A stretch of 64,000 bases of DNA from an uncultured bacterium (GTDB lineage Bacteria > Desulfobacterota > BSN033 > UBA1163): the NCBI GenBank assembly GCA_938002255.1, contig CALLAL010000038.1:1-64000 (forward strand). Reading direction: 5' to 3'. Shown here in pieces: positions 322 through 5,680 of the stretch (position 1 is its first letter; every line of letters begins with the position of its first letter). The notes beneath the pieces are model-generated. The model ran no database searches. It worked only from the letters and a program-made list of their open reading frames with translations, and was not told the origin of the DNA. The position numbers and the translations under genes are program-made.

Positions 322-355
322 AAAAAAGCCCGTGATAATAATGAGCCACGGGCTT
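322..355 (-). terminator. Intrinsic terminator of the riboswitch expression platform
   Basis: On the - strand AAGCCCGTG (347-355) pairs perfectly with CACGGGCTT (326-334) across a 12-nt loop, followed by a run of U (A322-A327 on the + strand). Bases 344-352 can instead pair with aptamer bases 409-417, so the hairpin and the aptamer compete. It sits between the aptamer and the small gene starting at 185. Confidence 0.85.
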
Positions 356-375
356 GTATAGAGATATTTCCCCTC

Positions 376-458
376 TATTACTTCGGCAACCCGGCTATCC
401 CGGAGGGACCCGTGGCTTTCCGTCCCACGATTGCTCGTGGTTTGGCTTTATCGGTGTT
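376..458 (-). ncRNA. Cyclic-di-GMP-I (GEMM-I) riboswitch aptamer
   Basis: Read on the - strand, the conserved blocks of GEMM-I RNAs appear in order: GATAAAGCCAAACC, the P2 hairpin capped by GAGCAAT, GGGACGGAAAGCC, the P3 hairpin, then AGCCGGGTTGCCGAAG. The tetraloop (GNAAA-type block) and receptor-like AGCCGGG..CCGA segments are intact. Relative to the usual GGCAAACC/GACGCAAAGCC, two positions are changed together (G to C and C to G), as expected for a compensated base pair. The preceding G, which I align with G20 of the Vibrio Vc2 RNA, favours c-di-GMP over the cGAMP (A20) subclass. A terminator follows directly. P1 is weak, so the outer boundaries are approximate. Confidence 0.85.
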
Positions 459-1812: not shown

Positions 1813-2275
1813 AATTAAAACAAAGGAATTCTGCAAACAATATGCCCATGAGCTTCAACAATTCTAATCTCTTTGAAAATGTTATATAAAACTAATATGC
1901 TTCGATATGAGATGAATAACTTCAAAATAACAAAATGTCATAAATAACAAATTTTTGTCAGTACCAAAGGAATATTTTAAGAAGTTTAAGCACGCCCACT
2001 TGTAATACGGGTCAAGTCTTTTTCTTCCTGTAAAAATGAATGGACATAAGGTTTTTTCAGAGCTTTGATGAAATGCCAACAGACAATAGAACGCCAGGAT
2101 GTGATGGAATCAACGATCTCCTCTCGGTAAAGTTTAGGGGAGATAATGGGGGGATATGGGTGGATCTGAGAGAATGGATTGTAGAGCATTATAGAGGACC
2201 TACTCCAATAAGTGTCCTATGTTTCCAGGAAGTTCGTCATTGACGGGTTGGCAAGGATTGGATACATTATGGGGT
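1813..2275. other. Divergent intergenic region, no recognised gene
   Basis: 463 nt between the divergent motB and sigma-54 activator genes. Short overlapping frames exist on both strands (1882-2243) but none has a ribosome site or recognisable domain. A possible promoter for the activator lies at its right end (2240-2268). Nothing else identified. Confidence 0.5.
2240..2268 (+). promoter_or_regulatory. Candidate sigma-70 promoter of the sigma-54 activator gene
   Basis: TTGACG (2240-2245), a 17-nt spacer, then TACATT (2263-2268). The predicted transcription start would fall next to the ATG at 2276, implying a leaderless or nearly leaderless mRNA. The -10 box is only moderate. Confidence 0.35.
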
Positions 2276-4219
2276 ATGAAAGAGATGAGCTCATCAATTG
2301 TTCCGGTTGCTCTGATGGCCCCTTACCCTGAAATGGCCAGTCTGGCCAGGACGATGATTAAAGAGTTTGATCGACCCATTCTTATTGAGGTGGGTGACCT
2401 TCAGCAAGGACTTCGAAAAGCAAGAGAGCTTCTGGGTCAAGGGATCGAAGTGATCATCAGTCGAGGAGGAACAGCGAAATTACTAAAGGATCATTTAAAC
2501 ATCCCCGTCGTTGAGATCAAAGTCACGGCTTATGATATTCTAAGAGCGCTTCAAAAGGTCAAAAAGAAAGACCAAAAAATAGGAATCGTCGGATTTGAAA
2601 ATGTTGTTCTGGGGGCAGAAAAATTAGGGGACTTATTGGACTTAAATCTCACGGTGTTTCCTATCCAAAAAGAAGAGGAAGTCCCAGCCCTCTTAGAGAC
2701 CGCTAATCGTCAGGGCATTGAAATCATCATTGGAGATAGAATCGTATTCTCTCAAGCCACTTCGTTAGGCCAACGCGCCATTCTGATCGAATCGGGGAGG
2801 GAGTCTCTTCTCCAATCTTTTCACGGAGCCTATGAAATTTTAAGTGTGGTTCGATCCGAAGCCCTAAAGGCAAAACAGCATCTCGATACGGTCACTCAGT
2901 TAAAAGCCGTCTTGAATGCTGTGGATGACCAGTTGATCATACTCGATTCAAACGATCGGATTCAATCCTGTAATCCGGCCGCCATGCAGATGTTCCATAA
3001 AAAAGAAACAGAATTGATCGGGTCGCCTCTCCCTTTATATCCAACCGGGCCACTCAAAGAGTTAAAAAAGAGACGGATCCCCCATAGAAATTACCTGGGT
3101 TATGTCCAGGGGAAGCATGTCCTGCTGGACTATGTGCCTATTGAAGCGGATGGGGAAAGGACCGGGACCCTCATTGTGGGGCGAAGTATTACCAAACTGC
3201 AGCAGGCCGAAAGAAAGATCCGGCATGAGCTCTATCTTAAAGGGCATGTGACCAAATATTCTTTCTCCGATATCCTCACAGGAAATCAAAATTTCAGAGC
3301 CATGATCAATCGAGCGAAGCGTTTCTCAAACTCTGAGTCAACGGTTCTGATCATCGGAGAAACAGGAACCGGAAAAGAAATGTTTGCCCAAAGTATCCAT
3401 CGCGAAAAATTTGGCTCGGAGAGCCCCTTTGTGGCCATTAACTGTGCTACCCTTCCGGAACCTTTACTGGAAAGCGAATTATTTGGATATGCCCCAGGTG
3501 CCTTCACCGGCGCCAGAAAGGAAGGAAAGAAAGGGTTATTTGAATTAGCCCACGGAGGAACCCTTCTCCTTGACGAGATCAGTGAATTACCTCTGAATTT
3601 ACAGAGCCGCCTGTTAAGAGTGATTGAAGAGAGAGAAGTTCAACCAATCGGTGACGACCGGGTGATTCCGATTGCTGTCCGAATTATTGTCACGACCAAT
3701 AAAGATCTATTGAGGGAAGTAAGAGAAAACCGATTCAGGGGAGATCTCTTTTACCGATTAAATGTCCTTCAACTCAATGTTCCACCCCTCCGAGAGAGGG
3801 GAAAAGATCCTTACCTTCTGTTCAGACATTTTATCTTGAGGATCAATCCAAAGTGTCCCGAAAGAGTTCTATTTCATCAAGAGATAGAAAGACTCCTTTG
3901 TCAATATTTTTGGCCAGGCAACGTGCGTGAGCTAAAAAATCTTGTAGAGAGATTGGCAAATCTTACGGAAAACTTTACACGTCCATTGAAGGACGTGCCA
4001 AAGTGGCTCGTTGAAGAACTTCAATCCTCAAAAGCCATAGACAGTCATCCGATGGATTTTAAAGAAAAGGTTTTGGACCTGAAAACCATCGAACAGGAAT
4101 GGATTAGAACATTATATGAATCCTATCCCTTCAATAAATCGGAATTAGCAAAGCGCCTTGGCATGAGCCGAACCACCCTCTGGAAAAGATTAAAAAGTCA
4201 CCCTCAACACCAAAAATAA
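2276..4219 (+). CDS. Sigma-54-dependent activator with PrpR N-terminal sensor and PAS domain
   Basis: A 647-residue enhancer-binding protein. Domains in order: PrpR_N ligand-sensing domain (about residues 8-190), a PAS domain (about 210-300), AAA+ domain with Walker A GETGTGKE (G361), the sigma-54-contacting GAFTGA loop (G408) and Walker B LLLDE, and a C-terminal Fis-type helix-turn-helix (SELAKRLGMSRTTLWKRLK). PrpR_N proteins sense small organic acids, such as 2-methylcitrate in PrpR, so this one likely senses a substrate or intermediate of the acid-sugar operon that follows. A near-perfect -24/-12 promoter lies 120 nt downstream, directly before that operon. The ATG at 2276 has little Shine-Dalgarno signal; an ATG at 2285 is a possible alternative. 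The ligand cannot be read from sequence. Confidence 0.93.
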   Translation: MKEMSSSIVPVALMAPYPEMASLARTMIKEFDRPILIEVGDLQQGLRKARELLGQGIEVIISRGGTAKLLKDHLNIPVVEIKVTAYDILRALQKVKKKDQKIGIVGFENVVLGAEKLGDLLDLNLTVFPIQKEEEVPALLETANRQGIEIIIGDRIVFSQATSLGQRAILIESGRESLLQSFHGAYEILSVVRSEALKAKQHLDTVTQLKAVLNAVDDQLIILDSNDRIQSCNPAAMQMFHKKETELIGSPLPLYPTGPLKELKKRRIPHRNYLGYVQGKHVLLDYVPIEADGERTGTLIVGRSITKLQQAERKIRHELYLKGHVTKYSFSDILTGNQNFRAMINRAKRFSNSESTVLIIGETGTGKEMFAQSIHREKFGSESPFVAINCATLPEPLLESELFGYAPGAFTGARKEGKKGLFELAHGGTLLLDEISELPLNLQSRLLRVIEEREVQPIGDDRVIPIAVRIIVTTNKDLLREVRENRFRGDLFYRLNVLQLNVPPLRERGKDPYLLFRHFILRINPKCPERVLFHQEIERLLCQYFWPGNVRELKNLVERLANLTENFTRPLKDVPKWLVEELQSSKAIDSHPMDFKEKVLDLKTIEQEWIRTLYESYPFNKSELAKRLGMSRTTLWKRLKSHPQHQK

Positions 4220-4339: not shown

Positions 4340-4354
4340 TGGCATATCTATTGC
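4340..4354 (+). promoter_or_regulatory. Sigma-54 (-24/-12) promoter of the acid-sugar operon
   Basis: TGGCAT, five bases, TTGC: both invariant GG and GC dinucleotides have the correct spacing, and the flanking T before and after also match the consensus. It is adjacent to a gene for a sigma-54 activator. The predicted start is near 4366, only about 4 nt before the ATG at 4370. Confidence 0.85.
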
Positions 4355-4369
4355 TTTAATTACGTCAAC

Positions 4370-5680
4370 ATGTCTCAAAGATGTTTATTGATCGCAGATG
4401 ATCTGACAGGAGGGGCTGATGCGGGAGCCCAATTTGCCAAAAGAGGACTTCGTACATTTCTCGTATCCTTAGACTCTGATGAAAAACTCGATCTCAATAA
4501 GTTTCATCCATACGATGTGTTGGCCATCAATACAGATTCAAGGACATTAAATCCAGATCAGGCCTTTGGAAGAGTATTCAGATTACTCAACCACTATCGA
4601 GAAGTTTCCTTCCCCATCATTTATAAGAAAATCGATTCGACTCTTCGTGGAAATATCGGATATGAAATTGATGCTCTTTTAGAAAAAACCAACAGCGCTC
4701 TCTCTTTCGTGGCACCCTCTTACCCTGAACAGAACAGGAGACTGGTAGGAGGGATTCTGATTGTTGGAGAAAAACCTCTTGCTTTAACCGAAGTGGCAAG
4801 AAATACACCCTCACCGATTCAGGAATCTCATGTCTACAAGATCCTTCAAAACCAATCCCGAAATTCAGTGGGGTGGATCGATCTAACTCATGTGGCTTCT
4901 GCACCTGAAACGTTAAAGAAAATGGTAGAAGAGGCAGGGCGTCAAGGTCATCGGCTTATCATCTTTGATGCAGTCAGCCGTCAGGATTTAGCCAATATCG
5001 CTGAGGTTGGATTCTCCTTTAAGAAGAAGCCTATTTTTGTCGGTTCGGCGGGTTTGGCTGAAGAAGTAGCCAAAAAGATCGTTCCATCCGACAGGGCGCT
5101 TTCTCTCCCCTACTCCGGGCAGAAGGTATTTCAACACCTCTTTGTGGTAAGCGGAACAGCCTCCAGTATCACCCGGCAACAAATTCAAAAAATCGAACAG
5201 AATGGAATCCCATCTTACACGATTCCTCAAAAACTCCTTGAGGGTGAGGAAACAACGGGAAAGCTTGAAAGAAGGGACCTGATCCAGAACCTCTCAAAGG
5301 CGCTCTCTCAAGGGAAAGTAATTCTAAAAACAATCCCGGAGTTGGTTTCCCCTGATCCTTCTAAGGAACCCCTCATCCATCAAAAAATTGTAACGACCTT
5401 GGCTGGTCTGGCGGTTTCCTCCATGGAGGACTCTCAGTTGGATAGCCGCCATCTTGCCCTCATCCTGACAGGGGGGGAAACAGCCCAAAACGTGCTCAAT
5501 CGACTTGGAAACGAAGGAATGGAAATTGAGGGAGAGCTGTTGGGAGGAATTGTCAAAGGCGTCCTGGTTGGAGGAAAATGGGACGGTTTAACCGTTATCA
5601 CCAAAGCCGGAGCCTTTGGAAGAGAGGATGCGCTTGAGAAAATCGTGTCTTTCTTAGAAGGGAACTGTTCTATGGAATAG
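4370..5680 (+). CDS. Four-carbon acid-sugar kinase family protein (DUF1537)
   Basis: A 436-residue protein of the OtnK/DtnK family, which phosphorylates C4 sugar acids such as threonate and erythronate, or related acids, with ATP. The N-terminal substrate domain begins LIADDLTGGADAG (residues 7-19), has KIDSTLRGN and FVAPSYPEQNR, and the C-terminal nucleotide domain contains SGTASSIT and LTGGETAQNV. Length is normal. It is the first gene of the sigma-54-driven operon and is paired with a pdxA paralogue further on, the known kinase-dehydrogenase pair that converts D-threonate to dihydroxyacetone phosphate. There is no ribosome-binding site and the predicted leader is about 4 nt. Exact substrate uncertain. 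Confidence 0.93.
   Translation: MSQRCLLIADDLTGGADAGAQFAKRGLRTFLVSLDSDEKLDLNKFHPYDVLAINTDSRTLNPDQAFGRVFRLLNHYREVSFPIIYKKIDSTLRGNIGYEIDALLEKTNSALSFVAPSYPEQNRRLVGGILIVGEKPLALTEVARNTPSPIQESHVYKILQNQSRNSVGWIDLTHVASAPETLKKMVEEAGRQGHRLIIFDAVSRQDLANIAEVGFSFKKKPIFVGSAGLAEEVAKKIVPSDRALSLPYSGQKVFQHLFVVSGTASSITRQQIQKIEQNGIPSYTIPQKLLEGEETTGKLERRDLIQNLSKALSQGKVILKTIPELVSPDPSKEPLIHQKIVTTLAGLAVSSMEDSQLDSRHLALILTGGETAQNVLNRLGNEGMEIEGELLGGIVKGVLVGGKWDGLTVITKAGAFGREDALEKIVSFLEGNCSME

Follow-up and report, generated by a model that had tools for sequence, protein, structure and literature searches.

Close to one edge of the window (the whole 64-kb stretch of DNA analysed here, taken from the start of contig C38), a putative sigma-54 promoter, an aptamer for c-di-GMP and an antiterminator that uses the 5' strand of aptamer helix P3 are likely to act together as a transcriptional OFF switch for a gene encoding 58 amino acids. 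The elements follow one another on the minus strand: a MotB-like gene upstream, which provides context (961-1836; PF13677 MotB_plug, PF00691 OmpA), a sigma-54-type promoter motif (500-485), the aptamer (455-381), an intrinsic terminator (355-322), and the 58-aa ORF (185-9).

The aptamer and its predicted ligand

The region at 455-381 (minus strand), with helices P1, P2 and P3, matches the covariance model of the c-di-GMP-I-GGC riboswitch (RF03167) with 71.0 bits (E 8.3e-15; gathering cut-off 59 bits), which bears out the GEMM-I aptamer that an initial annotation had read on this strand. The Rfam model covers the aptamer only, and the match spans all of it (model positions 1-80 of 80). The search with the c-di-GMP-I model (RF01051) that the annotation had proposed is also significant (456-382, minus strand; 68.8 bits, E 2.7e-13; cut-off 35); as RF03167 outscores it, the element is best assigned to the GGC sub-class of c-di-GMP-I. 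Matches to RF03167 were found in 9 of the 10 genomes of the genus, 15 of the 17 of the family and 177 of the 395 of the phylum that were searched.

The intrinsic terminator said to follow the aptamer is present in the full-length minimum free energy and centroid folds, with a 10-bp stem (355-346 with 335-326) and a U-tract. It was not listed by a simple terminator scan of the window, because its loop of 10 exceeds the limit of 8 in that scan. It begins 26 nt past the end of the aptamer and shares no base with it, so that both coexist in the fold. The element originally placed at 322-458 thus keeps its parts and acquires more precise bounds, 455-381 for the aptamer and 355-322 for the terminator.

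The core pair at model positions 11-36 is G-C in the RF03167 consensus and C-G in the window. This swap had been correctly described, but is not the unusual state it was taken for: C-G is a common variant carried by 14 of 24 phylum matches (G-C by 10), and the exact C-G core pattern occurs in at least 117 genome stretches from several phyla. We thus rejected it as a remarkable feature. In the crystallised Geobacter cGAMP riboswitch, P2 spans C15-G40 (PMC6274999).

The base directly preceding this pair (model position 10) sets the specificity. The covariance-model alignment places it opposite G20 of Vc2, as previously proposed, and the window has G there, like all 24 phylum matches; the Watson-Crick contact to the ligand (Vc2 C92; model position 75) is C. 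In Hypr cyclases, the Asp of the GHxxGD motif is replaced by Ser. The genome of the window encodes three complete GGDEF domains with GHxxGD, together with two degenerate ones. The specificity G and these three domains support the earlier preference for c-di-GMP over cGAMP as the ligand, from sequence evidence. We consider it highly improbable that the riboswitch is specific for cGAMP or some other dinucleotide instead: cGAMP riboswitches do share this architecture, relatives of Desulfobacterota type such as Geobacter use cGAMP (PMC8835794), and RF03167 describes a variant sub-class, but cGAMP riboswitches have an A at the specificity position (A14; PMC6274999), and the three intact GGDEF domains keep the GHxxGD motif.

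Some aptamers of the family carry inserts. A structured insert of ~50-56 nt separates GGGACG from GGGAAAGC in the core of 11 riboswitches that were read over their full length (L216, L218-L227) and also of L012, L019, L024 and L028. It gave 13 matches in 10 of the 17 family genomes. The genes that follow it are unrelated, and no copy was found in these genomes other than in riboswitches. A second insert (~99-115 nt, CCTGC...GCAGG) follows immediately after AAAGCCACG in P3 of L002 (G000:C2:30366-30544), L025 and L027, as well as L219, L222 and L225. The copy of L002 is the only one in the genome of the window, and in L025 and L027 the insert is followed by CACG, in the manner of a target-site duplication. 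Following an ACG, both types open with CCTGC or a sequence close to it. In L015, L022, L018 and others (7 places in the genus), the P3 loop is extended by 79 nt that have the look of three hairpins; the copies that could be placed lie in riboswitches. An origin of the inserts as dispersed repeats is unsupported, since the placed matches are all inside riboswitches.

A proposed antiterminator built on the 5' strand of P3

The switching segment CCCGTGGCT (352-344, minus strand), which spans parts of the 5' arm and of the loop of the terminator, is exactly complementary over 9 nt to the P3 5' strand AGCCACGGG (417-409, minus strand), as the initial annotation had pointed out. Both copies were located: the 64-kb window contains AGCCACGGG two times and no more, on the plus strand at 344-352 and on the minus strand at 409-417, for a chance expectation of 0.3 matches, and two or more occurrences anywhere in the window were obtained in 3 of 100 shuffles.

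We computed the partition function of transcripts of increasing length. P3 has a probability of 0.92 before the segment CCCGUGGCU emerges. The antiterminator then reaches 0.98 in transcripts of 123 to 135 nt, and at 123 nt it is 8.3 kcal/mol better than P3 in the model with no ligand. Once its 3' arm is made, the terminator has a probability of 0.81 (141 nt). The two full-length forms have nearly equal energies (aptamer plus terminator -47.1, antiterminator -47.5 kcal/mol), so the outcome must be kinetic. Since without ligand the antiterminator outcompetes P3 until the 3' arm of the terminator is made, the ligand should favour termination. The sign of the response originally suggested (OFF) is thus supported, as something we infer from comparison and modelled folding.

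The switch would work as follows. The RNA would start near 474, from the promoter at 500-485 (minus strand), and its first structured element would be the c-di-GMP-I-GGC aptamer (455-381). RNA polymerase would then make the segment CCCGUGGCU (352-344) which, with no ligand bound, would invade the aptamer and pair with the P3 5' strand (417-409). This pairing would destroy P3 and occupy the 5' arm of the terminator, so that polymerase would read on into the 58-aa gene. Bound c-di-GMP would lock P3 and leave the segment free, the 5' arm would pair with 335-326, and transcription would stop near 322. Expression of the gene would need both active sigma-54 transcription and low c-di-GMP.

The exclusive pairings are conserved. 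At ~30 loci of the GTDB family of the window, the 5' arm of the terminator (CCGTGG[CT]) complements the P3 strand ([AG]C[CT]A[CT]GG). Among 24 distinct family sequences, 97.4% of the antiterminator cells are paired, compared with 29-47% when the alignment is slid, and the pair between the purine of P3 and the pyrimidine of the terminator is GC in 10, GU in 9, AU in 5 and never A-C. Over 30 loci, the association at this pair has a Fisher P of 0.024 (for related loci and with kinship uncorrected). It is the only antiterminator pair with changes on both sides, the terminator stem by itself demands part of the conservation of CCCGTG, and the kinship of the family sequences makes covariation statistics overstate independence. 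In 25 of 26 family loci the antiterminator has a probability of 0.63-0.98, which falls to means of 0-0.31 when the arm is shuffled. The strongest argument for the switch is a qualitative one: L171, L176 and L028 have a distinct terminator stem (ACCGG.TTACC/GGTAATCCGGT) and keep the complement CCGTGGCT in the loop, where termination does not need it. Conservation, the coupled changes at one pair, these loop-borne complements and ensemble folding together uphold the initial claim that the terminator and an aptamer-disrupting antiterminator exclude each other.

These data also bear on whether the aptamer is in control at all. The terminator might be constitutive, or belong to the motB operon, with the P3 complement resulting from the repetition of a CCACGGG motif. 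The MotB-like gene does lie upstream on the same strand, and 9-nt complements can arise by chance, as the shuffles indicate. We regard this as unlikely, because the arrangement recurs at ~30 loci that precede unrelated genes across the family genomes, the complement is kept even with a different stem, and a separate promoter motif stands between motB and the aptamer.

The sigma-54 promoter motif and the downstream genes

The initial annotation had missed a near-perfect sigma-54 promoter motif at 500-485 (minus strand), TGGCATCATCATTGCT, with a predicted start near 474. It has the form TGGCA-N6-TTGC with the -24/-12 spacing of sigma-54 promoters, and RpoN is encoded in the genome. Searching for the consensus TGGCAYN5TTGCW gave 2 sites in the window, where 0.06 would be expected, and 27 sites across the 3.27-Mb genome, where reversing the pattern gave 5; two of these 27 precede the two riboswitches of the genome. 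The other site in the window (4340-4355, plus strand) lies shortly before an acid-sugar kinase-like gene (4370-5680) and adjoins the gene of a PrpR-type sigma-54 activator (2219-4219). In the family, 34 of 36 riboswitches have the motif TGG[CT][AC]-N6-[TA]TGC at a distance of 43-59 nt before the aptamer, compared with 13 of 2340 random windows (0.6%) from other loci; matches to sigma-70 promoters exceed chance by at most ~1 standard deviation. Hence, to judge from these motifs, nearly every such riboswitch in the family sits behind a putative sigma-54-type promoter, which is new and would stack two control systems on the same genes. A literature search conducted mostly outside subscription journals returned no paper on the coupling of a c-di-GMP riboswitch to a sigma-54 promoter.

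Outside the family, the motif is present at 3 of the 7 loci with the terminator platform of the window and at 3 of the 122 others (Fisher P = 0.002, kinship uncorrected). The link between motif and platform is not strict: L026 has the motif and a platform of ON type, and L175 and L179 lack the motif.

The presumed regulated gene is the 58-aa ORF (ATG 185-183, stop 11-9, minus strand), which has a ribosome-binding site, GGAGGAAGGGG, before its start codon. As the window opens contig C38, the ORF ends at the contig edge. Contigs C37 and C38 share 141 terminal bases, beyond which C37 (G000:C37:1-2038) runs into the gene of a DDE transposase, encoded on the other strand. The 58-aa gene is therefore probably the last or only gene of its transcript, and the transposase gene, or insertion sequence, is probably the cause of the contig break at position 1; the overlapping contig suggests that an insertion sequence follows the gene. 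The protein has no match in Pfam or NCBIfam, and its structure predicted alone is an unreliable all-helix model (mean pLDDT 71, pTM 0.40). In another genus (G012:C56), the gene of a homologue with 35% identity comes directly after a riboswitch; a third such protein is encoded behind a sigma-54-like motif with no recognised riboswitch. Judging from the neighbouring targets, our guess is that the protein may act in surface behaviour or motility needed by the cell when c-di-GMP is low.

The riboswitches of the family precede genes of small Cys proteins, type IV pilins or pseudopilins, and kinases or response regulators; the C-terminal part of one target is PilZ-like by eye. Small proteins with four Cys (CxxFYR...CDLD...CxGDxxxC) are encoded downstream of L043, L045, L052 and others, often two in tandem. 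They match no Pfam or NCBIfam family and are candidates for a family under c-di-GMP control.

Probable ON and OFF platforms of one aptamer class

The OFF logic proposed for the window has a precedent in the Cd1 riboswitch of Clostridioides difficile, a c-di-GMP OFF switch in which aptamer and terminator coexist and the antiterminator unfolds the binding pocket (PMC9262584). In the modelled structures of the window, and by conservation, the terminator likewise coexists with the aptamer and the antiterminator excludes both. The strands differ: the antiterminator of Cd1 uses the 3' strand that stabilises the aptamer (strand A) and sequesters C87 (PMC9262584), whereas that of the window pairs with the P3 5' strand (417-409) rather than with the 3' stabilising strand.

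Relatives outside the family are mostly organised otherwise. At ~69 of 129 loci, the terminator contains the 3' half of the aptamer itself (AGCCGGGTTGCC...GGYAAYCCGGCT-UUUU), which makes ligand binding and termination mutually exclusive, and 7 of the 129 have the type of the window. The commonest platform outside the family in our sample is thus of ON type. It resembles that of the pilM riboswitch of Geobacter metallireducens, a cGAMP ON switch whose terminator includes strand A and excludes the aptamer (PMC9262584). The window shares the aptamer architecture of pilM, but has G rather than A as the specificity base and a terminator that does not overlap the aptamer. One could suppose from these relatives, pilM being a characterised example, that the window also holds a c-di-GMP ON switch in which the ligand prevents the terminator from forming. 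The separation of terminator and aptamer by 26 nt, and their coexistence in the fold, make this very unlikely.

An OFF switch remains our preferred reading for the window, and both signs are expected in its family. The terminators of L175, L179, L023 and L026 are built on the 3' end of the aptamer (GCCGAA...TTCGGC), so that opposite signs should coexist within the family and even within a single genome, G004. In L171, L176, L120 and L028, the 3' arm of the terminator can pair with a dedicated copy or with the 3' half of the aptamer. Because the 3' arm GGTAATCCGGT allows both pairings, L171, L176 and L028 could be transitional forms between the ON and the OFF type.

We tentatively propose, with a little less than even confidence, that the family has a regulon of sigma-54-transcribed genes shut off by c-di-GMP. 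The means would be a GEMM-I platform with inverted logic and with the P3 5' strand as its antiterminator, and this platform may derive from the common ON platform through a duplicated switching strand. The regulon would take in the small four-Cys proteins, type IV pilins and pseudopilins, PilZ-like and kinase genes, and the 58-aa protein of the window, some members having structured aptamer inserts.

By sequence comparison, a familiar aptamer is combined with a predicted OFF platform that uses P3 and with a sigma-54 promoter motif, and this combination is conserved across a family. One aptamer class would act with opposite signs in genomes that are related, and there are candidate intermediates, which makes the inversion of riboswitch logic directly testable. 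The coupling to sigma-54 would create a two-input gate, of which we found no description for these riboswitches in the papers searched: expression would require both the firing of an enhancer-binding protein and a low level of c-di-GMP. The arrangement also indicates uncharacterised small proteins as putative targets of c-di-GMP.
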